A stretch of DNA of 64,000 nt, taken from NCBI GenBank assembly GCA_001516055.1, contig LOEZ01000077.1, positions 1 to 64,000 on the forward strand, read 5' to 3'. This document shows positions 7,440 through 59,172 of this stretch, piece after piece. This DNA is from Gracilibacter sp. BRH_c7a. GTDB taxonomy: Bacteria > Bacillota > Desulfitobacteriia > Desulfitobacteriales > Syntrophobotulaceae. Numbering within the stretch: position 1 is the first letter of the stretch; each line of letters starts with the position of its first letter. Made by a program: the position numbers and the translations under genes. Under the pieces are notes generated by a model that did not search any database, was not told the origin of the DNA, and worked only from the letters and a program-made list of their open reading frames with translations.

Positions 7440-9245
7440 ATGGATCAAAGAAAAGAAGCATTAGACAATATCATATGTAACAAACAAATTAGGATAGTCT
7501 TTCAGCCCATCATTTCTATAAGAGACGGCAGTGTTTTAGGATTCGAGGCACTCAGCAGATTCACGTGTGAAAGTGTATTTAAGAATCCTGAAGAATTGTT
7601 TACTGCTGCAGGAGAATATAACCGTCTATGGGATTTGGAATTGCTGTGCAGAACAACCGCTCTTGAAGCAGCATATAAATTCATGATTCCCCCCTATAAT
7701 AAAAAGCTGTTTCTTAATGTGAACCCGAATACGATGCATGATGAATCTTTTAAAAAAGGATTTACAAAAGAATTTTTAAGACAATATAAAATCACTCCAG
7801 ACAATGTCATTTTTGAAATAACCGAAAGAAACGTTGTTGAAGATATAGCAGGCTTCCGATCTACTATCAGTCATTATAAAAGTCAGGACTATAATATTGC
7901 TATCGATGATGCTGGAGCAGGATATTCGGGGCTGAATCTTATCAGTGATGTTAAGCCCAATTACATAAAGCTTGATATGAAGCTGATTCGCGGTATTCAT
8001 ACCGATAAAATAAAAAACGCACTCGTAAAAGGTATGGTTGAATTCTCTAAGGCTTCCAGTATTAAACTCATTGCTGAAGGCGTAGAAACCTACGAAGAAT
8101 TAGAGACACTTGTAAACTTAGGCGTACAATATGGTCAAGGATATTTTATCCAAAAACCGGACACGGAAATTAAGGAGATAAAAACGGAAGTTTTGCAGGC
8201 GGTTAAAGAAATTAATGTCAAGAAGAACCGGTTAATGCGGGATAGTATTTTTAATATAGCTATCCGTTATTTATGCAATCCTACCGGGATTACTTCTCCC
8301 GACGAAACTGTTCGTAATGTATCCGATATTATAAAGCAAAGCCCGAATTGCTTCGGATTATGTGTAATAGATAAGGATATACCTGTAGGAATTATTACAA
8401 AAGAAAAATTGTCTTTAAACTTAAGCGGCCAATATGGTTATACCCTAAATCAAAATAAAACCGTTTCAGTAATAATGGATAAAAACTTCCTGTCAGTAGA
8501 TAGTGAAACACCGGTAAATATTGTGTCGTCAATGGCGATGTCACGACAGAATGACAGGATATATGATTTTATTGTCGTTACAGAAAACAAAAAATATCTC
8601 GGAACGGTGACAATAAAAGATTTGCTTCAAAAATCTACTGAGATTGAAGTTTCAATAGCCAAGCACCATAATCCCTTATCAGGCTTGCCTGGTAATCTGA
8701 TGATTGAACAAAAGCTTAATCAATATATAGAGAGCAACCGCAAATACAGCATTGCCTATCTCGATATCGATAATTTCAAGGCGTATAATGATATTTATGG
8801 ATTTGAAAGCGGAGATTTAGTGATAAAACTGCTGGCTGATATTTTAAGAAACAATGTGCCCTGCGGTCAGTTTATTGGACATGTAGGTGGCGATGATTAT
8901 GTAGTGATCATAGAGAACCACATAACCGAGGATTATTTTAGGAATATAGTCAAACAATTTGAGTCGGATGTTTTGGCTTTTTACAATGAAACGGATATAC
9001 AAAATGGATATATTACCGCAACGAACAGACATGGGGCGGTTGAACAATTTCCACTGATAACACTTACCGCTGTTGTTGTAAATAATAGGTCACGAGTTTA
9101 TCATAGTGCATTTGAGATATCTGCGATGCTTGCAGGCTTAAAAATAAATGCTAAAAATAATAAAGGCGGTTTGAAAACATATCAGAAAAATCATTTCTCG
9201 TCAGCTGTGGAACCGAGAATGTTAATAAAGGTTAAAAACCGGTGA
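7440..9245 (+). CDS. EAL - CBS pair - GGDEF c-di-GMP signalling protein
   Basis: A cytoplasmic protein of 601 residues with three parts in order. An EAL phosphodiesterase domain (about 10-245) has GFEALSR with Glu36, the DDAGAGYSGL loop and EGVET near 213, so its metal and catalytic residues look complete. A CBS-type pair follows (about 270-390). A GGDEF domain (about 405-575) has GGDDY at 483-487 in place of GGDEF and no RxxD inhibitory site upstream. No membrane segment is present. The layout suggests a c-di-GMP phosphodiesterase tuned by a ligand bound to the CBS pair, with the GGDEF half either weakly active or a GTP-binding regulator; this split of roles is inference. An AGAAGGATG ribosome site precedes the ATG. 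Confidence 0.9.
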   Translation: MDQRKEALDNIICNKQIRIVFQPIISIRDGSVLGFEALSRFTCESVFKNPEELFTAAGEYNRLWDLELLCRTTALEAAYKFMIPPYNKKLFLNVNPNTMHDESFKKGFTKEFLRQYKITPDNVIFEITERNVVEDIAGFRSTISHYKSQDYNIAIDDAGAGYSGLNLISDVKPNYIKLDMKLIRGIHTDKIKNALVKGMVEFSKASSIKLIAEGVETYEELETLVNLGVQYGQGYFIQKPDTEIKEIKTEVLQAVKEINVKKNRLMRDSIFNIAIRYLCNPTGITSPDETVRNVSDIIKQSPNCFGLCVIDKDIPVGIITKEKLSLNLSGQYGYTLNQNKTVSVIMDKNFLSVDSETPVNIVSSMAMSRQNDRIYDFIVVTENKKYLGTVTIKDLLQKSTEIEVSIAKHHNPLSGLPGNLMIEQKLNQYIESNRKYSIAYLDIDNFKAYNDIYGFESGDLVIKLLADILRNNVPCGQFIGHVGGDDYVVIIENHITEDYFRNIVKQFESDVLAFYNETDIQNGYITATNRHGAVEQFPLITLTAVVVNNRSRVYHSAFEISAMLAGLKINAKNNKGGLKTYQKNHFSSAVEPRMLIKVKNR

Positions 9246-23300: not shown

Positions 23301-23702
23301 CTATTTTAAACTTTGATGCCAATCACGAAGACCTCGTTTCATATGATAAAGGTTACTAAAACTATTCTTTAGTAGTATTCTGACTGCGGACGGGCTTCTA
23401 CTTCCTGATGCACAGTATACTAAAATAGGTTTATCCTTATATTTTGTTAATTCATTAATCCTTGAAGCAATTTCGCCTACAGGGAAAGATTTTGAGCCTG
23501 GTATATGACCGGATGCAAACTCTTGCTTAGTCCTGACATCTAGAATAGTGAGATCCTTGTTCTTTTGGATAAATTTAAACACCTCTTCTGATGATAGATG
23601 TTTTATGTTCTTGTTTAAAGAAAAAGAGATTTTGCGATAACCTATAAAAATTAAAAAAATAGCAAACACGATATAGAGAACATAGTCTTGCAAATGAATC
23701 AC
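23301..23702 (-). CDS. Membrane-anchored rhodanese-domain sulfurtransferase
   Basis: A 133-residue protein with one N-terminal membrane helix (VLYIVFAIFLIFIGY) followed by a single rhodanese domain: LTILDVRTKQEFASGHIPGS, then the active-site loop VYCASGSRSP with its Cys, and a final MKRGLRDWHQSL. Such proteins move sulfane sulfur and are often induced by polysulfide or persulfide. A CsoR/CstR-like palindrome lies just upstream of its promoter (23774-23790), which supports persulfide-responsive control. Confidence 0.9.
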   Translation of the reverse strand: MIHLQDYVLYIVFAIFLIFIGYRKISFSLNKNIKHLSSEEVFKFIQKNKDLTILDVRTKQEFASGHIPGSKSFPVGEIASRINELTKYKDKPILVYCASGSRSPSAVRILLKNSFSNLYHMKRGLRDWHQSLK

Positions 23703-23773: not shown

Positions 23774-23790
23774 ATACCCCTACAGGGTAT
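23774..23790 (-). promoter_or_regulatory. CsoR/CstR-like operator upstream of the rhodanese gene
   Basis: A 17-bp palindrome, ATACCC-CTACA-GGGTAT. The same arms with the same 5-base spacing occur at 53488-53504 in the promoter of the methyltransferase/radical SAM operon. CsoR-family repressors, including the persulfide sensor CstR, bind C-rich/G-rich palindromes of this type (family knowledge). The regulator gene is not in the window. Confidence 0.6.
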
Positions 23791-45267: not shown

Positions 45268-45942
45268 GTGATTATCGTTTATTCCAAATTTTATTCCTTA
45301 GAACCGGATAAACGAGAACGTATCATTAATGCATCCTTGAAAGAATTTGCAAGAAATGGTTATGAGAAGGCTTCTACCAACGAGATTATAAAAGAAGCTG
45401 AAATATCCAAAGGATCATTATTCAACTATTTCAACAGTAAAAGGGAATTGTATTTATTCTTACTTGACTATGTAGTTAAGGTTATTGACAAAATCTATAT
45501 TGAAATAGATTGGAATCAAACAGATATTTTTCAAAGAATGAGAGAAATAGGGTTAATTAAATTAAAAATTTATAAAAAGTATCCGCATGCATTTAATTTT
45601 CTAAAGGCTGCTGCCCATGAAGATGCTACTGAAGTAAAATCCGAGATTAATAAAATAGGTAAGTATCTTATTGAAAGTGGTTTAGAAAGAGGTTATAAAA
45701 ATATAGATTGGACAAAATTTCGTGATGATATTGATATACAAAAAATGATGAAGATTATTAATTGGACGATCCTAAGTTTTGCCGAAGAGCAAAGAGATAA
45801 AGTGAGGTCTTTTGAAGATATCAGTATGGATACACTTAAAGAATGGGATGATTATTTTGACATTTTGAAACGTTGTTTTTATAAACAGGAACCTGGAGAC
45901 ATAGAGGCAGTTAGTTATGGAACAAAAAGGGAGGATCAATAA
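45268..45942 (+). CDS. TetR family transcriptional regulator
   Basis: 224 residues. The N-terminal HTH reads IINASLKEFARNGYEKAST, NEIIKEAEISKGSLFNYF, NSKRELYLFLLDYV, typical TetR. The ligand domain is not recognised. The start is GTG 45268, 28 bases after the second operator copy. It overlaps the open frame of the ABC ATPase and leads the operon, so it should repress itself and the exporter, releasing on binding a drug-like ligand. Confidence 0.92.
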   Translation: MIIVYSKFYSLEPDKRERIINASLKEFARNGYEKASTNEIIKEAEISKGSLFNYFNSKRELYLFLLDYVVKVIDKIYIEIDWNQTDIFQRMREIGLIKLKIYKKYPHAFNFLKAAAHEDATEVKSEINKIGKYLIESGLERGYKNIDWTKFRDDIDIQKMMKIINWTILSFAEEQRDKVRSFEDISMDTLKEWDDYFDILKRCFYKQEPGDIEAVSYGTKREDQ

Positions 45943-45943
45943 T

Positions 45944-46642
45944 ATGTTTATTGATATTTCGAACTTGAAGAAAAGCTACACATCGGGCGTGGTTATTAAT
46001 GAAGTTTTAAAAGGAATAAGAATGGAGCTGGAAAAGGGAGAAATCGGTGTCATACTCGGACCATCTGGTTCAGGAAAATCAACCTTGATGAATATCCTTG
46101 GTGGCATTGACCGTGGTGACAGTGGTAAGGTAATCGTTGATGGGATTGAGGTAAATAATCTAAACGATGACAATCTAACCGAATATAGACGTGAGGATAT
46201 CGGTTTCGTTTTCCAGTTCTATAACCTCGTTCCGAACCTTACGGTTGGAGAGAACATTGAAGTTGTTTCCAACATAAGCAAATCACCTCTAAACATTGAA
46301 GAAGTATTAGCGGCGGTCGAAATGCAGGATAAAAAACATCGCTTCCCAAGGGAGTTGAGCGGTGGTGAACAACAACGGGTATCCCTTGCCAGAGCGATTG
46401 TCAAGAATCCGAAGCTGTTGCTTTGCGATGAGCCAACCGGAGCACTTGATTATAATACTTCTCGCAGCATCTTGCAGCTATTGGAGCAGGTGAATAAACA
46501 ATTTGGTACAACTATTTTGATGATAACTCACAATACTGCGATTGCTGCTATGGCCAACAGGGTATTTAAGCTGCGAAGCGGAGAAATCGTTGAAGAAGTG
46601 ATTAATCAGGCGATTGTTCCGGCGGAAAGGGTTGAATGGTAA
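45944..46642 (+). CDS. MacB/LolD-type ABC transporter ATPase
   Basis: About 232 residues: Walker A LGPSGSGKSTLMNILGG, Q-loop VFQFYNLVPNLTVGENIEV, signature LSGGEQQRVSLARA, Walker B LLLCDEPTGALD and the switch His in MITHNTAI. ATG 45944 has GGGAGG upstream, one base after the tetR stop. It pairs with the permease it overlaps. Such pairs often export or expel peptides and antibiotics. Confidence 0.94.
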   Translation: MFIDISNLKKSYTSGVVINEVLKGIRMELEKGEIGVILGPSGSGKSTLMNILGGIDRGDSGKVIVDGIEVNNLNDDNLTEYRREDIGFVFQFYNLVPNLTVGENIEVVSNISKSPLNIEEVLAAVEMQDKKHRFPRELSGGEQQRVSLARAIVKNPKLLLCDEPTGALDYNTSRSILQLLEQVNKQFGTTILMITHNTAIAAMANRVFKLRSGEIVEEVINQAIVPAERVEW

Positions 46643-48885
46643 TGGCTATTAATAAGAGAATCAAGCGTGTTCTCCTTGAAAACAAAGCACAGTATATCGG
46701 ACTGATTTTGCTGATCACTTTTAGCTGCTTTACATTTACATTGATGAGTCAGTTTGCCGAAAATTTTGAGCGGTTGGCTAATGAATTTCAAGTCGGATAT
46801 GTGCAAGAAGATGCTGCATTCACAACCAACCAAAGAATAAGCAACCTGCAGGAACTTGAGTTGGCAGGTAACGCAATGATTGAAGAAGGATTCACCTTCG
46901 ACTATACGCTTGCCGAAGGGAAAACCTTACGCATCTTCAGCTACAATGACAGGGTTAACATCCCGGCAATTCTCGACGGTAAAGAATTAAGTGGAAGCGG
47001 CGATATCCTCATCAACCCGGTTTTTGCTGAGGCACACAACTATAAAATCGGCGATGAGATCAGGATATTGGATAAATCCTTTAACATTGCCGGTATTATG
47101 GCCTTGCCCAATTATATTTATCCACTGCAATCAGAAGAAATGATGATGCCGTTGCCCGGCTTCGGTATCGCAGTAATTAGTAAGGAAGATTTCGCCGGCT
47201 TTGATCAAGGAAGTAACTTCTACGCGGTAAAGTTTAACCAGGTTAATCAAAACCCCCAAATCCAGTCAGCTGATTTTAGAGAGCTTCTCAAGAGTAATGG
47301 CATTGATATTGTAAAATGGACAGACATCGAAGATAACAAGCGGGTCAATATCGTTGATGCAGAAGCGGAAATCCTCAATCTGGTGAGTAAGGCTGTGCCT
47401 ACAGCTATCTTATTGTTGGCCAGCATTATGGTAGGGAACGTCATTTGGCGACTGATAAATCTCGAATCAGCGATCATTGGCGGCTTGTATGCGTTCGGGT
47501 ATAGAAGAAAGGAAATCCAACGTCATTATTTGATATTTCCGCTCATCATAGCCGTTATTGGAGGGATATTCGGGACCATTCTTGGTACTCTCCCGGTACT
47601 CTCGATGACATCTTTTATGTTCACTGCTTTTAATATACCGCTGACCGGAATCGAGTATAATCCGAGCATGATGGTCTTAAGCGTTTTCTTACCTATTCTC
47701 TTCCTCGGCAGCAGTAGTTACTTTGTCATCCGCAAAGAGCTGAAGCATTCGCCCGTGGAGCTTATGAAAGGCAAGAAAGAGAAGAACAAGGTCAATTTTT
47801 TGGAGAGTGTGCTCAAACTTGAAAAACTTCAATTTCCTACAAAGTTCAAAATCAGAGGACAACTTAGAAGTCTGTCCCGTCTAGCTTTCCTGTTCTTTGG
47901 TGTTGCCGTAGCGACAATGCTTTTGCTCTGGGGTTTCACCCTGAAAAGTGGTTTTGATAATATGCTTACCGGAGGCACCGTGTACACTTTCGAGTATGAA
48001 TATAAGTTCGAAAAGTTACGCTATGATCCGCTGCCGAAGGGTGCGGAGCCCATTTCGGCAGCGTTATTTCTGACGGAGACCGATAATAAGAAAGATTTTT
48101 ATGTCAGTGGCGTTATGTCGGACTCTGTTATGGTTAACCTTATAGATGAATCTGGTACTAGATTGAGTAACAACCAGGTTATTGTAACGAAGCCTCTTGC
48201 CAATCAATTAGAATTAAAGCAGGGCGATACCATCAGTATCGTCAGGAAGCTGGATGGTCGCTTATTTTCACTGAAGATTGAAGCGATAGCAGATACCTAT
48301 GAGGGTAAATTTATATTCATGCCGCTGGCGGACTATAATGAGAAATTCGAGATGCCAGAAGGAAGTTATACGGGGGCTTTTAGTAATGATCTGTTAGATA
48401 TTCCTGAAAATCAGTCATTCAGCGTAGTGTCATTGGACGATAAATTAGCTGCAGTTCGAGAAGCACTTGCACCCACGCAGGCAATGATTGGTGGTCTGGC
48501 GGCGATAGCATTTATCATCGGAATGATTGTCATCTATGTTGTAACTTCATTAATGGTTGAGGAGAATAAGCACAATATTTCGCTAATGAAGATTTTCGGA
48601 TATCGCAAGAAAGAGATTAACTCCTTGATTCTAAATAGCTCAACTATGGTTGTTGTGTTTGGATATATTATTGGCGTACCGTTAACTCTTTCAGCAATAG
48701 GAGTACTGATTCAATCACTGGAAGATAGCGTCGGTCTGACGTTGCCGCCTTCGACGATTAGTTTGCCATACATTTTAATTGGGTTTGTTGTTGTGATGTT
48801 CTCTTATGAGTTGTCAAAGCTGCTGTGCAGGAAAAAAGTTAATACCGTTTCTATGAGTGAAGCCTTAAAATCGGGAACGGAATAG
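46636..48885 (+). CDS. FtsX-family ABC transporter permease
   Basis: 749 residues with two FtsX units. Helix 1 is near residue 17-35 (YIGLILLITFSCFTFTL), followed by a large extracytoplasmic domain, three helices near 250-370, a middle helix near 415, a second external domain, and three final helices (about 610-740, IAFIIGMIVIYVVTSLMV, VVVFGYIIGVPLTLSAIGV). The overall layout is that of BceB/YtrF-like permeases rather than MacB. It overlaps the ATPase gene by seven bases. Substrate unknown. Confidence 0.9.
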   Translation: MVMAINKRIKRVLLENKAQYIGLILLITFSCFTFTLMSQFAENFERLANEFQVGYVQEDAAFTTNQRISNLQELELAGNAMIEEGFTFDYTLAEGKTLRIFSYNDRVNIPAILDGKELSGSGDILINPVFAEAHNYKIGDEIRILDKSFNIAGIMALPNYIYPLQSEEMMMPLPGFGIAVISKEDFAGFDQGSNFYAVKFNQVNQNPQIQSADFRELLKSNGIDIVKWTDIEDNKRVNIVDAEAEILNLVSKAVPTAILLLASIMVGNVIWRLINLESAIIGGLYAFGYRRKEIQRHYLIFPLIIAVIGGIFGTILGTLPVLSMTSFMFTAFNIPLTGIEYNPSMMVLSVFLPILFLGSSSYFVIRKELKHSPVELMKGKKEKNKVNFLESVLKLEKLQFPTKFKIRGQLRSLSRLAFLFFGVAVATMLLLWGFTLKSGFDNMLTGGTVYTFEYEYKFEKLRYDPLPKGAEPISAALFLTETDNKKDFYVSGVMSDSVMVNLIDESGTRLSNNQVIVTKPLANQLELKQGDTISIVRKLDGRLFSLKIEAIADTYEGKFIFMPLADYNEKFEMPEGSYTGAFSNDLLDIPENQSFSVVSLDDKLAAVREALAPTQAMIGGLAAIAFIIGMIVIYVVTSLMVEENKHNISLMKIFGYRKKEINSLILNSSTMVVVFGYIIGVPLTLSAIGVLIQSLEDSVGLTLPPSTISLPYILIGFVVVMFSYELSKLLCRKKVNTVSMSEALKSGTE

Positions 48886-48935: not shown

Positions 48936-49085
48936 CTATTTTGACAATTTTTCCAATATGTTGTTCAGCGATTCACAGTCAGGACATCCGCTTTCCGAGC
49001 CGCCATCTGCACAAGTTTCCAAACAGTGGTTTATTGATTTTTTCAATATTTCTATTTCCTTGTCTGACAAAGATATATTAACCAT
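48936..49085 (-). CDS. 49-residue Cys-rich small protein
   Basis: An unlisted small frame with AGGAGG six bases before its ATG (49085) and a TAG stop at 48936. It begins MVNISLSDKEIEILKKSI, continues with four Cys at 21, 25, 34 and 37 (CLETC, then GCPDC) around GGSES, and ends in a short helix (LNNILEKLSK). Two spaced Cys pairs on helix ends suggest a metal or disulfide site. It lies beyond the terminator of the Trx-TrxR operon on the same strand. I do not recognise the family. Confidence 0.65.
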   Translation of the reverse strand: MVNISLSDKEIEILKKSINHCLETCADGGSESGCPDCESLNNILEKLSK

Positions 49086-49292: not shown

Positions 49293-50576
49293 TTACTTTT
49301 TCGATGATATATATCTTTCTGCCATGATTCCAGCAACAGCACCATCAGAGGAGGCGGTTACAACTTGACGTATTTGTTTAGTCCTTATGTCACCTGCTAC
49401 GAAGACTCCTTCAATATTAGTTTGTGTATCTTCAGAAGCTATAACATAACCCCATTGATCAATGTTAACTTGCCCTTTGTATAGGTCGGATTTAGGTTGG
49501 ATTCCTATATATACAAATGCTCCATCTGTAACTACGTCTTGAAGTTCTTTTGTCTTTAAGTTTTCAATAACTACACTTGTCAATGAATGTCCCTGACCAT
49601 TTACTTTTCTGACCTCTGAATCCCAGATCACATCAATTTTTTCATTTTGAAAAGCCTCTTCTTGGGCAGTCTTTGAAGCTTGGAAGTGATCAAACTGGTG
49701 GATTACTGTGACATGAGAAGCCCATCTGGTTAAAAATACTGCTTCTTCTACAGCTGAGTTTCCTCCTCCAACTACTACAACCTTTCTACCCTCATACATT
49801 GAGCCATCACAGGTTGCACAATAGTGGATTCCACGCCCTTTGAACTCGTCAGCTCCTTCAGCTGGGAGGGCCCTGGGTTGAGCACCAGATGCAATTATTA
49901 CTGCCTTTGCATAGTATTCTGTATCTTCAGTTCTAACATATTTTAAGTCACCTTGAAGCTTTACTTCGGATATCTCCTTTAAGTCATCTATTGTTGCTCC
50001 AAAGGATAAAGCTTGTTCCCTCATGTTGTTAATGAGCTCTTTGCCTCTTACAACTCCTGGAGTCCCGGGATAATTTGCCACATGGTATGTGGAAGCAGCC
50101 TGGCCTCCAGGAACGCTTTCATCCAAAATTACTGTATTTAGCTTAGCCCTTGATGCATAAATTCCTGCAGAAAGTCCCGAAGCCCCTGCACCCATGATAA
50201 TTACGTCGCAATCAACTCTTTTCAAGGGTTCTGAGGGTATTACATCTCCTAATATTTCTTCGATAGCTTTTCTAACCTGCGGCTTATTCATAAATCCATT
50301 TAGCCTTGAACCTACCTCTTGACCGTCTTTAAAGAACAATACTGTTGGACTGCTACTAACATTAAGGCTTTTGGCAAATTCTCGATTATCTTGCCTTAGT
50401 ATTTTTATAAACTTTATATAATCTCCGTATTTTTCTGCCATCTTTTCGAAGATAGGGGCAAGAACCTCGCATGGTGCACAATCTTCCGAATAAAAATCAA
50501 CGATTACAGGTGTTTTACTATTTAGTGCTTCTTGTTCAAATTTATCAGCATTTATTGTTATAATTCTTTCGCTCAT
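49293..50576 (-). CDS. Thioredoxin - thioredoxin reductase fusion
   Basis: 427 residues. Residues 1-110 are a thioredoxin (TPVIVDFYSEDCAPCEV, redox Cys33 and Cys36, with CAPC in place of CGPC). Residues 120-427 are a flavin thioredoxin reductase (VIIMGAGASGLSAGIYASRA for FAD, HYCATCDGSM with Cys253/Cys256, VVVGGGNSAVEEAVFL for NADPH, IEGVFVAGDIRTKQIRQVV). The order Trx then TrxR is opposite to the Mycobacterium leprae fusion (TrxR then Trx). It lies 23 bases after the radical SAM gene, so it probably feeds electrons to a thiol in that pathway. No separate trx or trxB is in the window. Confidence 0.94.
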   Translation of the reverse strand: MSERIITINADKFEQEALNSKTPVIVDFYSEDCAPCEVLAPIFEKMAEKYGDYIKFIKILRQDNREFAKSLNVSSSPTVLFFKDGQEVGSRLNGFMNKPQVRKAIEEILGDVIPSEPLKRVDCDVIIMGAGASGLSAGIYASRAKLNTVILDESVPGGQAASTYHVANYPGTPGVVRGKELINNMREQALSFGATIDDLKEISEVKLQGDLKYVRTEDTEYYAKAVIIASGAQPRALPAEGADEFKGRGIHYCATCDGSMYEGRKVVVVGGGNSAVEEAVFLTRWASHVTVIHQFDHFQASKTAQEEAFQNEKIDVIWDSEVRKVNGQGHSLTSVVIENLKTKELQDVVTDGAFVYIGIQPKSDLYKGQVNIDQWGYVIASEDTQTNIEGVFVAGDIRTKQIRQVVTASSDGAVAGIMAERYISSKK

Positions 50577-50599: not shown

Positions 50600-52669
50600 T
50601 CACTTATTATAAGGAAAATATGGGCATTCGCTTCTTAAACAGTCTTTATTATCTTTAAACTGTTTGCATACATATTTTGACCCACTCAAATCTTTAAACA
50701 CATCTATATTCTTTTTTGTGCTCTCAAGGGACAATATTGTTTCCCTCTTACAGCACCTTGGACCCCCGTATTGGCTTATATTAAGAAGTGCTTGGGCTGT
50801 GATTTGGTTGGCATTTCCTCTGATTTCTTTGGATAGCGGACTTACTTGATTAATTATTGAGTAGGCAGCACCCGCACCAATTGCGGCACCGCAAGCCCCA
50901 TGGGTACCACAATAACCACCCTTTGTATCCTGGCCTCTTTTTATTGCTTCTCGTATATTTGGTGGGTTTTTATTTCCGATAACGTTTTGATATGCTGTTA
51001 CTAGTATTGCAGGAACAATACTGTGGTATTCTGGCCCATGCATATTAAGATCCGGTATCTCAAAAATCCTATTTGCAAGTTCAATCGGGTCCTTAATATC
51101 TGTAGCAACGCATATCTCTTCAACCAGTCCCAGGATATTATTTCCGTGGCAACTATCGCATACATAATGACCACTTTCGCAGGTCACATAGGTTTCTTCT
51201 TCCCGATTGCAATAGAAACATTTGGCCTTTACTGCTTGTTGAGTATTGTAGACAAGCTCCTTGCCGCATACAATACATCCAGAAATAAACTGTTCTTCTT
51301 CTCCAGTCATACTTTTAATTTCTTTAATATAGTGATTTACACCAACCTCAATTAGCTCTTGAATGGGTCTGCAGTCAGGGGACAGGATACTTCCATTCTT
51401 ATTTAACGCCACAACTCCGCAGCCTCCGCCGCAGATTACGTTATACTGACAATCTTTGCAGTCGTCTATATTCAAGACATTTCTCTGCTGCCATTCACTG
51501 ACGGATTTTTTATTTAGACTGACTTCGGGATAGAAAGTTCCAAGCTTAAGTTCTTCTCTGCCGCAGCTTGCAGTACAGCCGTAAACATCGCCTTTGTAGT
51601 CAAATACCCATTCAGTCTTAGCCGCAGGGCAGGTATCAAAGCTTGCCATATACAATTCCCCAGTGTCTACTAGATGCCTTATGCCTTTGAAGTCTGGTCT
51701 ATGGAACTTTTGCAGGATGGGATATTTTTTACTGAGGATTGAATAATCTGCCCAGAGTTCTACCTGAGTCATAAGATGCTGGGGTTTAGCGTAGCACGCG
51801 AATAGTTCATAATTTCTTCCTATATGGGTCTTGAATAAGCCTGGTTCTAAATCCAGCCAACCCTTTTCATCAAGAAACTCAGCCAGATTTATAAGACTCA
51901 GCATATTTTCTCTGTCTACAACTGTTCTTAAGTTAATTGGTATTTTGTTCTCAACTAACTTTTCTATACCGGAAACTATCCTGTCAAACGTACCTTTTTG
52001 ATTTGCAGTACCTCTTCGCTGGTCGTGTACTTCCCTGACACCATCGAGAGTTACCTGTATTTCTTTAACCTTTGCTTCTTTTAATATATCAACATAATCT
52101 ATCAAATCAAATCCGTTGGTTACAGCGGAAATCTCATAATCATATTCAACGCATTTATCTATAATGTATTGAATAATCTTCCTTTGGGCTGGAGAATTAA
52201 CAAGCGGTTCTCCTCCAAATAAGGTTATAAAAGGTTTTAGTTTTCTTTCGGTAAAATTAGTGTTTGCGTAATCAAAGAACGCATCAACAATTTCTTTAGT
52301 TATTATTCCAGCTTTTCCTGAGATGCCATGTTCATAGCAGTAGGTACACGCAAGGTTACACCCATAGGTTGGAATTAATAAAAGCTGTACGAGGGAATTC
52401 TCTTTTTCTTCCCTAAAAGTAGCAAGTTCCCGCTTGATTGATTCATCTTCATCTACTTTGTCTGCAAACAAATAGCCTCTTTCAAGAAGATAATTGATAA
52501 ATTGTTTGTTATATTTATCAATTATTCCAGTCTTTTTAATATTGTTTAATTGCTCGTATTCCTTTTTTTCTACAATGTCAAAGTTCCCAGATAAAGGGTT
52601 TAGTATCGCATATTGAACAGGAATCGTATTATCTATTTTAACAATAATATTATTTTTACTATAATACAT
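50600..52669 (-). CDS. Radical SAM/SPASM maturase-like protein with C-terminal DUF5714
   Basis: 689 residues. Residues 1-90 are a small N-terminal domain of the type in SPASM peptide maturases (AILNPLSGNFDIVEKKEYE, INYLLERGYLF). The radical SAM core has its cluster Cys at 104, 108 and 111 (CNLACTYCYEH), with TLFGGEPLVN and TNGFDLIDY. A Cys-rich SPASM part follows (about 365-455: SFDTCPAAKTEW, YGCTASCG, DDCKDCQYNVICGGGC). The last 225 residues resemble DUF5714, with Cys pairs (CIVCGKEL, CFYCNREE, CDSCHGNN) and GYCGTHGACGAAIGAGAAYS, GPRCCKRETI. Just upstream lies a 35-residue Cys-rich peptide gene, a plausible substrate. Start ATG 52669 with GGGGGAAAG. A related but different job (metalloid or thiol chemistry) is possible. 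Confidence 0.9.
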   Translation of the reverse strand: MYYSKNNIIVKIDNTIPVQYAILNPLSGNFDIVEKKEYEQLNNIKKTGIIDKYNKQFINYLLERGYLFADKVDEDESIKRELATFREEKENSLVQLLLIPTYGCNLACTYCYEHGISGKAGIITKEIVDAFFDYANTNFTERKLKPFITLFGGEPLVNSPAQRKIIQYIIDKCVEYDYEISAVTNGFDLIDYVDILKEAKVKEIQVTLDGVREVHDQRRGTANQKGTFDRIVSGIEKLVENKIPINLRTVVDRENMLSLINLAEFLDEKGWLDLEPGLFKTHIGRNYELFACYAKPQHLMTQVELWADYSILSKKYPILQKFHRPDFKGIRHLVDTGELYMASFDTCPAAKTEWVFDYKGDVYGCTASCGREELKLGTFYPEVSLNKKSVSEWQQRNVLNIDDCKDCQYNVICGGGCGVVALNKNGSILSPDCRPIQELIEVGVNHYIKEIKSMTGEEEQFISGCIVCGKELVYNTQQAVKAKCFYCNREEETYVTCESGHYVCDSCHGNNILGLVEEICVATDIKDPIELANRIFEIPDLNMHGPEYHSIVPAILVTAYQNVIGNKNPPNIREAIKRGQDTKGGYCGTHGACGAAIGAGAAYSIINQVSPLSKEIRGNANQITAQALLNISQYGGPRCCKRETILSLESTKKNIDVFKDLSGSKYVCKQFKDNKDCLRSECPYFPYNK

Positions 52670-52688: not shown

Positions 52689-52713
52689 ATAGGCGGCTAA
52701 TATAGCCGCCTAT
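52689..52713 (-). repeat. Strong intercistronic hairpin between the Cys peptide and radical SAM genes
   Basis: An exact 11-bp inverted repeat, ATAGGCGGCTA / TAGCCGCCTAT, with a 3-nt loop, starting a few bases after the peptide stop codon and ending 20 bases before the radical SAM start. No T-run follows, so it would partly block transcription or protect the upstream message rather than end it. Confidence 0.75.
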
Positions 52714-52716
52714 GTA

Positions 52717-52824
52717 TTAGTCATGACATCCTTCAACTACCTTTGATGATTTTGCACAACACTGAGCAGTTTTGATATCGGAACAACAAGAACTTTTATT
52801 ATTCTTATTTGTTACCTTTCTCAT
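52717..52824 (-). CDS. 35-residue Cys-rich peptide, candidate RiPP precursor
   Basis: A small frame found by reading the gap between two operon genes; it is too short for usual gene calls. ATG 52824 has GGAGGTG about seven bases upstream (in GGAGGTGATTAGAATG) and TAA ends it at 52717. The leader-like first half is basic and Asn/Lys-rich (MRKVTNKNNKSS). The second half has Cys at 13, 14, 22, 23 and 33 (CC, CC, then C-H-D at the end). It lies between the methyltransferase gene and the radical SAM/SPASM gene, all on one strand with 13- and 47-base gaps. Position and composition suit a substrate of the radical SAM protein; alternatively it is a metal- or metalloid-binding peptide. Confidence 0.72.
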   Translation of the reverse strand: MRKVTNKNNKSSCCSDIKTAQCCAKSSKVVEGCHD

Positions 52825-52837
52825 TCTAATCACCTCC

Positions 52838-53485
52838 TTAACGTGCTTTATATGCTCTTATCGTTAAACTTATAAAGGCATATCCATTTTTTAAGTATTC
52901 TCTTCTTTTGAGAATCTCAATCTCTTTGAAGCCAGCTTTTTTTATGCTGCTTAAATATTCTTTTTCAGTTATAGCACCACCAAAGCAGGAAGCCCACTGC
53001 AAAGGGTCATTTTTAATTGATTCCGGTAAAGGAGACTTAGTCACAGCATCGGAGACAACAAATTTTCCTCCATCTTTTAAAACCCTGTGAATTTCCTGAT
53101 AAACCCTTGATTTATCCCTAGCATGATTTATTACACAGTTGCTCATGGCAGCATTGAAACTTTCGTTTTCAAATGGTAGATTCTCAATATCACCGACTAC
53201 GAATTCTATATTTGCAATATTTTGTTTCTTGGCATTTTCTTCTGCCACATTCAGCATGTTTGATGTTAAATCTAAACCTACAGCCTTACCAGATTCTCCC
53301 ACTAATTTCGCTGCATCTATAGTCTCTATCCCTCTTCCACAACCTAGATCCAGTACTCTGTCCCCAGACTCCAATTCCAGGAAACTAAGATTGTTTCCGC
53401 AGCTTAGATTACTTTCGTTCTCGCTTTCCTTTGCATATCTTAATTCAACTTTATTTTTTATTTCATTCACATTGTTAACTCCCAT
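52838..53485 (-). CDS. ArsM-like SAM methyltransferase
   Basis: 215 residues, class I SAM fold: DRVLDLGCGRGIETIDAA, VGLDLTSNMLNVAEENA, GDIENLPFENESFNAAMSNC, VINHARDKSRVYQEIHRVLK. The text tracks arsenite methyltransferase ArsM closely, including SNCVIN, SDAVTKSPLPE and the Cys-G-G-A-I pattern (ASCFGGAIT). Cys29, 117 and 167 match positions used for As(III) thiolate binding in ArsM. The C-terminal extension of ArsM is missing. Arsenite, another metalloid, or a peptide could be the substrate. The frame opens at ATG 53485 in the operator; a GTG at 53470 with GGGAG upstream is an alternative start. It leads the Cys-peptide/radical SAM operon. Confidence 0.85.
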   Translation of the reverse strand: MGVNNVNEIKNKVELRYAKESENESNLSCGNNLSFLELESGDRVLDLGCGRGIETIDAAKLVGESGKAVGLDLTSNMLNVAEENAKKQNIANIEFVVGDIENLPFENESFNAAMSNCVINHARDKSRVYQEIHRVLKDGGKFVVSDAVTKSPLPESIKNDPLQWASCFGGAITEKEYLSSIKKAGFKEIEILKRREYLKNGYAFISLTIRAYKAR

Positions 53486-53487
53486 AT

Positions 53488-53504
53488 ATACCCCCTACGG
53501 GTAT
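53488..53504 (-). promoter_or_regulatory. CsoR/CstR-like operator of the methyltransferase/radical SAM operon
   Basis: A 17-bp palindrome, ATACCC-CCTAC-GGGTAT, directly downstream of the -10 box, covering the presumed start site. Arms and spacing equal the site upstream of the rhodanese gene (23774-23790), 30 kb away. Confidence 0.65.
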
Positions 53505-53533
53505 ATAATACTAATTTCTTAAACCATAGTCAA
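53505..53533 (-). promoter_or_regulatory. Promoter of the methyltransferase/radical SAM operon
   Basis: On the minus strand TTGACT (53533-53528), 17 bases, TATTAT (53510-53505): a near-consensus sigma-A promoter with the operator immediately after it. Confidence 0.8.
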
Positions 53534-58011: not shown

Positions 58012-59172
58012 GTGAAGATATTGTCTCAAATATTTAAACGTAAGAAAGAGAACCAACTGTTCGAGGCCATGCAGATTGAAGTTTGTGCTTCTTGTAATAT
58101 CCGTTGTACCTTTTGCCCAACTACCCACCAGCATCACCACTACGGTATTGACACCATGGATTTGGAACTTTTTCAAAAGCTAGCACTTTATTTTCCCTGG
58201 TTTAAGTGGGTTTATTTACAAGGGTGGGGTGAGCCATTATTACATAAAGATATTTGGCAGATGGTTCAACTGGCTAAAGGGGCTGGGGTTAAAGTTGGTT
58301 TTACTACCAACGGCACTCTCCTGAACCAGGACGCCCTTGACAATATTTTTAGAATGGGAGTGGATCAGATTTCCACATCCATCGCTGGAGCTACTTCGGA
58401 GAGCCATGGAAGATTACGAGTAGGGTCACAGCTGGAGCAAATCGGAATAAATGTTGTGAACCTTCTTCAACAGCGACGGGCCAAAGGGATAAATCGACCC
58501 AGGGTGAGTATTTCCTATATGTTGACCAAAGATAGCATACATGAGCTACCTGAAGCACTGAAGCTGGCTTTGAGTTGGGGAGTAGATGATTTCTATACAA
58601 CCAACCTCGATTATGTTTTTAACCAGCTGGCTGATGAGCAAAAGGTTTTTTGTTGGGATGAAGAGGAACAAAAATCTTCATCGGGGAGTATGGAAGCAAA
58701 TTTAAGGCAGTATCAGGAGTATCTTGATGTAGCTGCCAGTCTGGCAAGTAAGAAGAAAATTTCTTTTCGTTCTTGCAAGCTCGCTGCCAAGGAGCAGGAG
58801 GCATCTTGCGAACTAAACCCTAACAAGTATGTCTTCATTACTGTCCGTGGTGATGTAACCCCTTGCACTTATCTAGCTAGAATGGAAAATCCTAAGATAT
58901 TTCGCGGCCAGTCTTATAAGTTTCCTTGTCAATCCTTTGGTAACATCCAACAATCAGGTTTAAGTCAAATCTTAGAAGGTGAGGAGTACAGAGAGTTTTG
59001 TCTGCCCTTCAAAAAGAGGGAGCAAGCCTTAACTCGGTTAATGTCTGCGTTTATTGATTATGAACCTAGCCTGTTACGCATTCATCAAGCAGAAGAAGAG
59101 TATAGCCAGCATTTAGAAGAAAATTCTCTGCCCAAGCCCTGTCAAGTATGTCCTAAGCCCTTTGGGGTTTGA
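58012..59172 (+). CDS. Radical SAM protein with SPASM-like C-terminus
   Basis: 386 residues. The cluster motif is in CASCNIRCTFCPTTHQHHH (CxxxCxxC), with LQGWGEPLLHKDIWQMV and FTTNGTLLN, and a C-terminal Cys set (FRSCKLAAKEQEASCELN, VTPCTYLARME, CQVCPKPF). SPASM-type radical SAM proteins modify peptides or cofactors. It is divergent from the hydrogenase operon, with a 239-base gap, and a role in its assembly is possible but not shown. Start GTG 58012 with GGAGGTG upstream. Confidence 0.87.
   Translation: MKILSQIFKRKKENQLFEAMQIEVCASCNIRCTFCPTTHQHHHYGIDTMDLELFQKLALYFPWFKWVYLQGWGEPLLHKDIWQMVQLAKGAGVKVGFTTNGTLLNQDALDNIFRMGVDQISTSIAGATSESHGRLRVGSQLEQIGINVVNLLQQRRAKGINRPRVSISYMLTKDSIHELPEALKLALSWGVDDFYTTNLDYVFNQLADEQKVFCWDEEEQKSSSGSMEANLRQYQEYLDVAASLASKKKISFRSCKLAAKEQEASCELNPNKYVFITVRGDVTPCTYLARMENPKIFRGQSYKFPCQSFGNIQQSGLSQILEGEEYREFCLPFKKREQALTRLMSAFIDYEPSLLRIHQAEEEYSQHLEENSLPKPCQVCPKPFGV

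Follow-up and report, generated by a model that had tools for sequence, protein, structure and literature searches.

A conserved cassette pairing a short Cys-rich peptide with a radical SAM/SPASM enzyme in Gracilibacter sp. BRH_c7a and its relatives: a candidate RiPP system

Genes and features of the cassette

The window analysed here, a stretch of 64,000 nucleotides from Gracilibacter sp. BRH_c7a, carries an operon-like cassette on its minus strand in which a short gene for a Cys-rich peptide is flanked by genes for an ArsM-like methyltransferase and a radical SAM/SPASM-DUF5714 protein; both neighbours had been claimed in a preliminary description of this DNA, and they were found on the two sides of the peptide gene. 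Listed from the promoter side, the features are as follows:

53505..53533, minus strand: predicted cassette promoter TTGACT-N17-TATTAT, from a consensus scan; weak alone, the count of such sites in the region being not above that of shuffled sequences
53489..53503, no strand assigned: CsoR/CstR-type palindrome TACCC-N5-GGGTA, predicted repressor operator, from its recurrence across loci
52838..53485, minus strand: ArsM-like SAM methyltransferase, 215 aa, whose Cys29, Cys117 and Cys167 align with Cys72, Cys174 and Cys224 of CmArsM
52829..52839, minus strand: ribosome-binding site of the peptide gene, AAGGAGGTGAT, read directly, with similar sites before the genes of relatives
52717..52824 (stop included), minus strand: Cys-rich precursor-like peptide, 35 aa, from its homologue family and codon changes
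52689..52713, minus strand: GC-rich RNA hairpin right after the peptide stop and before the radical SAM gene (ATAGGCGGCT...AGCCGCCTAT), z -4.4
51305..52669, minus strand: radical SAM/SPASM maturase part of the fused gene, residues 1-455, from sequence and predicted structure
50600..51304, minus strand: DUF5714 part, residues 456-689, with zinc-ribbon-like Cys pairs at its N-terminus, from a domain match and relatives
49293..50576, minus strand: thioredoxin (CAPC) fused to thioredoxin reductase (CATC), 427 aa, from sequence
48936..49085, minus strand: p49, a 49-aa protein with CxxxC...CxxC, the last cassette gene, its four Cys being present in 20/20 relatives

The peptide, MRKVTNKNNKSSCCSDIKTAQCCAKSSKVVEGCHD, has Cys at positions 13, 14, 22, 23 and 33 and ends in CHD, and AAGGAGGTGAT stands immediately 5' of its ATG. 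The 35-codon gene with a ribosome site that had been proposed at 52717-52824 was therefore borne out, on the minus strand and with its Cys positions and C-terminal end as claimed. Judged by comparison with its relatives, the reading frame is real and not a product of chance, because seven of the eight codons changed with respect to the nearest relative are synonymous, because identity to that relative is 97% for the peptide as against 78% for the methyltransferase (88% for the radical SAM protein and 85% for p49), and because the core AQCC[SA]K...GCH[DN]-stop was found in 41 distinct DNA versions. The peptide matched no known RiPP or metal family of NCBIfam and Pfam, p49 had no match in either collection, and no solved relatives were found for the two proteins. 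Hairpins similar to the one behind the peptide stop occur at that point in most relatives, plausibly as a device giving more peptide than enzyme.

The methyltransferase gene ends 13 bases upstream of the peptide gene. Its product shares the fold family of ArsM, and Cys29, Cys117 and Cys167 are kept in 42/42 sequences; the CmArsM residues aligned with them, those of solved arsenic methyltransferase structures, bind As(III). However, the cassette methyltransferases are shorter than ArsM (mostly 204-218 aa versus about 265-290 aa) and missed the cut-off of the NCBIfam arsenite-methyltransferase model NF008823 (218.5 and 203.4 versus 263 bits). Scores of at least 202 bits for cassette methyltransferases, compared with at most 160 bits for stand-alone ArsM of the same genomes, set the two groups apart, and in a tree the cassette copies cluster away from stand-alone ArsM, a grouping that is not resolved as a single clade. 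Further along the cassette, both CxxC sites of the thioredoxin-thioredoxin reductase (Trx-TrxR) fusion are kept in relatives, and p49, absent from the preliminary description and a frequent though not constant cassette member, lies on the same strand as the peptide, radical SAM, methyltransferase and Trx-TrxR genes.

The radical SAM/SPASM enzyme and its pairing with the peptide

The radical SAM/SPASM-DUF5714 protein (50600-52669, minus strand, 689 aa) is encoded by a gene starting 47 bases downstream of the peptide gene. Its maturase part combines a CX3CX2C motif at 104-111 (C104, C108, C111) with a SPASM-like CX2CX5CX3C motif at 404-417, and in an AlphaFold model (pLDDT 90) residues 8-90 form a beta3-alpha3 domain of three strands and three helices. 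This is the topology of RiPP recognition elements (RRE), and the modelled N-terminal domain appears RRE-like, with leader binding predicted; the Pfam SPASM and PqqD models gave no report on the maturase. The best PDB fold match over the full length was CteB (5why, E 2.3e-18), which was also the only PDB sequence match at 1e-10 (5wgg, E 2.7e-18) and is hence the closest solved maturase relative, at about 20% identity in the structural alignment.

CteB and its precursor CteA, the six-Cys ranthipeptide (SCIFF) system of Clostridium thermocellum, resemble the present pair in that a short Cys-rich precursor immediately precedes the enzyme, and in being conserved and widespread in Clostridia. However, the maturase scored 107.5 bits against a cut-off of 425 for SCIFF (TIGR03974), the peptide lacks the six-Cys pattern, and we know of no SCIFF system with an ArsM-like methyltransferase, a Trx-TrxR fusion or a DUF5714 partner. 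The best-scoring curated family was that of CefB, the Cys-every-fifth radical SAM/SPASM maturase (NF038107), at 187.8 bits, but its cut-off is 600 bits and the peptide does not have Cys at every fifth position. PapB is another radical SAM/SPASM thioether maturase, which makes Cys to Asp/Glu links (PMC9413430). The peptide described here ends in C-H-D, but spacing and context differ from those of PapB and the maturase reached 125.7 bits against a cut-off of 340 (NF047865). Assignment to a known maturase family was rejected, since every NCBIfam maturase cut-off was missed.

DUF5714, a Cys-rich domain of unknown function, shows a resemblance to the selenoprotein MbdU; its model is fair (pLDDT 84), it had no fold or sequence match in the PDB, and no paper naming it was found in the literature searched. 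The fusion named in the preliminary description is present in the window, as it is in some other loci, but in many relatives DUF5714 is a separate neighbouring gene.

A first search, of 60 relatives, placed the peptide in 12/61 genomes from 8 genera, and a profile search found it in 17/83 genomes of the class and 20/399 of the phylum, for which 399 genomes were sampled. When the maturase was searched in the same 399 genomes, 20 of them gave matches at E<1e-200, followed by a gap to 3e-88, and these were exactly the 20 genomes with the peptide. The 36 peptide loci in named genomes belong mostly to anaerobic Clostridia sensu lato (Desulfosporosinus, Paradesulfitobacterium, Acididesulfobacillus, Carboxydothermus, Thermoanaerobacterium, Mahella and many MAGs) and in one case to a cyanobacterial MAG. 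The radical SAM gene lies directly 3' of the peptide gene in 35 of them, all with the methyltransferase in the cassette; 32 also have the Trx-TrxR fusion, and of the three without it two are truncated by contig ends. The preliminary description would have been refuted had no homologues kept a Cys pattern beside radical SAM genes of this kind; such homologues exist, and the one-to-one co-occurrence, the adjacency in 35 of 36 loci and the CteB-like maturase argue strongly for a dedicated, RiPP-type peptide and radical SAM cassette. On these genomic grounds, there is good support for the peptide as a dedicated maturase substrate. Of the new RiPP cassette originally suggested, it is this pairing that stands; RiPP status and thioether formation are inferred, and p49 and a CsoR-type operator are further parts of the system.

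The family alignment reads M[R/K]xxT-variable-CC-variable-AQCC[SA]KxS-xxx-GCH[D/N]-stop, with one N-terminal Cys and A, Q, C, C, K, G, C and H as invariant columns, and the core residues are unchanged across families and in one other phylum. The CC-x7-CC-x9-C pattern first described is thus a special case: its Cys are kept in the invariant AQCC...GC part, but the spacing ahead of AQCC differs among relatives, three of which, close ones (L068-L070), have only one Cys in place of the N-terminal CC.

Several individual loci deserve mention. The locus from outside Bacillota (L093) is a complete cassette in the cyanobacterial MAG UBA8530, which may represent horizontal transfer or a binning error. 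The sole exception to the adjacency of peptide and radical SAM genes among the named loci is a second, orphan copy of the peptide gene in Desulfosporosinus metallidurans (L089:8001-8105; also L072), which has no maturase nearby and its own CsoR-type palindrome at 7866, the full cassette of that genome lying elsewhere (L084). In the same order, one genome has a 159-aa fragment of the cassette radical SAM enzyme with no peptide (L133:1435-1914), which looks, from its sequence, like a decayed cassette.

The palindrome and a predicted regulon

The palindrome TACCC-N5-GGGTA lies directly after the -10 box and before the methyltransferase start codon. Over 505 kb of cassette loci, 24 sites were counted compared with one for the reversed control; they fall in 18/38 loci, each of which has at least one copy upstream of a cassette gene, and the targets in these loci include DUF5714 genes where these stand alone, as well as the orphan peptide. 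The palindrome is missing from the other 20, for example those of Thermoanaerobacterium and Carboxydothermus. Pseudo-palindromes that contain G/C tracts are the binding sites of CsoR-RcnR proteins, and repression of rhodaneses is common among CstR homologues (PMC10318464). The sites described here resemble those of CstR/CsoR regulons in their TAC...GTA arms and G/C tract, in their position at a promoter and in being carried by rhodaneses, thioredoxins and a CsoR-family gene, but the literature searched describes no regulon of this kind that includes a RiPP cassette. No relevant riboswitch or RNA leader was found in Rfam.

Within the window, a single further copy was detected, close to a predicted partner gene:

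23775..23789, no strand assigned: the only other palindrome copy in the window, with a rhodanese gene 73 bases downstream of it; predicted to belong to the same regulon
23301..23702, minus strand: membrane-anchored rhodanese-domain protein, predicted regulon partner from the palindrome upstream

Genome-wide counts barely exceed the control (8 versus 6 in the genome of the window; 10 versus 4, 7 versus 11, 6 versus 4 and 2 versus 1 elsewhere), so that an individual site away from the cassette could be due to chance and serves as a lead only. Of the eight sites in the genome of the window, one is that of the cassette, and others lie at a CsoR-family gene with thioredoxin behind it, at an SBF/Acr3-like permease, at an Fe-S oxidoreductase subunit and in two rhodanese regions, one being the region at 23775 and the other having its site in common with a DUF1847-rhodanese gene (L138:1011-2543). 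In other genomes, the palindrome precedes TrxB, a thioredoxin, a C_GCAxxG_C_C protein, the Fe-S subunit and, next to aspS and downstream of it, an orthologous CsoR-family gene. In L109 it separates the cassette from a DUF1847-rhodanese gene that runs divergently (1267-2169), and an Fe-S oxidoreductase subunit of a single type carries it just upstream in two families (L142:459-1484, L148:497-1480).

The candidate regulator (L135, ortholog L157) has kept the Cys and His-x3-Cys ligands of a metal sensor; the persulfide sensor CstR is characterised by a dithiol Cys pair with no CsoR-type His ligand. Because this CsoR-family protein retains such ligands, copper or another metal would be as possible a signal as persulfide. 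A separate CsoR gene adjoins a copper ATPase (L145), and its product is likelier than that of L135 to be the copper sensor.

Proposed role of the cassette and alternatives

Radical SAM/SPASM enzymes associated with small Cys-rich peptides are an already known combination. However, the precursor family, the maturase subfamily and the set of partners were absent from NCBIfam release 20, Pfam and the literature searched, and the cassette apparently represents a RiPP family not described before, whose product is invariant and whose function has a real chance of being new as well. The invariant core suggests, by analogy, a cofactor-like RiPP unlike an antibiotic or bacteriocin; the precursors of PQQ and mycofactocin have an invariant core. 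Together with the lack of an exporter and the methyltransferase, thioredoxin and CsoR-type partners, it suggests a housekeeping peptide cofactor, a member of a very small group, in a family that spans Desulfosporosinus to Thermoanaerobacterium and Carboxydothermus. A functional analogue is mycofactocin, whose small, ribosomally made precursor has a C-terminal core that does not vary, and which has its own SPASM enzyme and an intracellular redox context (PMC3023750), the precursor, core and enzyme arrangement being common to both systems. However, no homology of the precursor or partners to those of mycofactocin was found.

We infer the chemistry and the biological role of the cassette. In an evenly balanced judgement, it would be a dedicated RiPP system whose one conserved, intracellular product serves thiol/sulfane-sulfur or soft-metal(loid) homeostasis. 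The radical SAM enzyme would bind the N-terminal part of the peptide through its RRE-like domain, although no leader/core boundary is evident in the peptide, and introduce at least one cross-link, most likely Cys thioethers, in the AQCCSKxS...GCHD core. The mature product would stay in the cell, since no recurrent exporter, immunity gene or peptidase/leader protease was found among the cassette neighbours and the core is invariant. It could carry sulfane sulfur or a metalloid such as As(III), acting as a rigid soft ligand with several thiols that Trx-TrxR would keep reduced, and hand its cargo to the methyltransferase with its three invariant ArsM-site Cys, while a CsoR-family repressor would turn the cassette on under thiol, sulfane-sulfur or soft-metal stress. 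The company of the operator (rhodaneses, thioredoxins) favours sulfur as the cargo, whereas the ArsM Cys and the permeases favour a metalloid. The fully specified scheme, in which a cross-linked peptide cofactor is charged with sulfane sulfur or metalloid, passed to the ArsM-type methyltransferase, recycled by Trx and governed by a CsoR/CstR-type switch, is tentative and on the whole rather doubtful. If it were true, the cofactor would be a sulfur/metalloid counterpart of the electron role of mycofactocin, linking radical SAM peptide chemistry to sulfur/metalloid stress; the cassette also offers a handle on DUF5714.

A possible though unlikely alternative is a metalloid system in which the peptide, modified or not, serves as a small chaperone of the As(III)/Sb(III) type. 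Together with Trx-TrxR it would supply the methyltransferase, which would be a genuine arsenite-methylating enzyme, and a permease would let the methylated metalloid out. Such a system would account for the arsenic-site Cys shared by every cassette methyltransferase, and is consistent with ArsP_1-like half-permeases upstream of the methyltransferase in five loci (L088, L096-L099; the one scanned gave 27.3 bits, below the 32.3 cut-off), with an SBF/Acr3-like permease near the cassette in L064/L108, which in the genome of the window has its own palindrome, and with weak matches of three peptides to the ArsD-related VcpD (E 0.13). However, the surroundings of the cassette show no recurrent classical ars operon, many of these genomes have a separate, longer ArsM, the cassette enzyme falls below the arsenite-methyltransferase cut-off, and the rhodaneses of the predicted regulon would be left unexplained.

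It is improbable that the peptide is instead an unmodified metal binder, a metallothionein-like or zinc-ribbon-like mini-protein sharing only its operon with a radical SAM enzyme that acts on another target. The CC...CC...GCH arrangement could bind metal as it is, and 12/19 members gave faint matches to the BTK zinc motif (best E 0.013), but the strict one-to-one presence of peptide and enzyme over 399 genomes, their constant adjacency and the resemblance of the enzyme to peptide maturases, CteB being the closest, speak against this reading. A secreted antimicrobial RiPP of the sactipeptide/ranthipeptide kind, which a small Cys-rich precursor adjoining a SPASM maturase would recall from known thioether bacteriocins, is very improbable given a core almost invariant across families, unlike those of bacteriocins, the lack of a recurrent exporter, peptidase or immunity gene, and a CsoR-type operator and Trx-TrxR that point to stress physiology.

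Some genes in the surroundings were considered separately from the cassette reading. The ABC transporter at 45917-48885 was rejected as an exporter, being on the other strand and not recurrent, and a defence system was likewise discarded, the PADLOC matches being to generic radical SAM and methyltransferase models only. A second, unrelated radical SAM-like protein of 386 aa, read by eye, lies near hydrogenase genes at 58012-59172 of the window. In other loci, genes for HdrA/B/C-like heterodisulfide reductase are located directly upstream of the cassette (L074, L077, L082, L083 and L023; same order).
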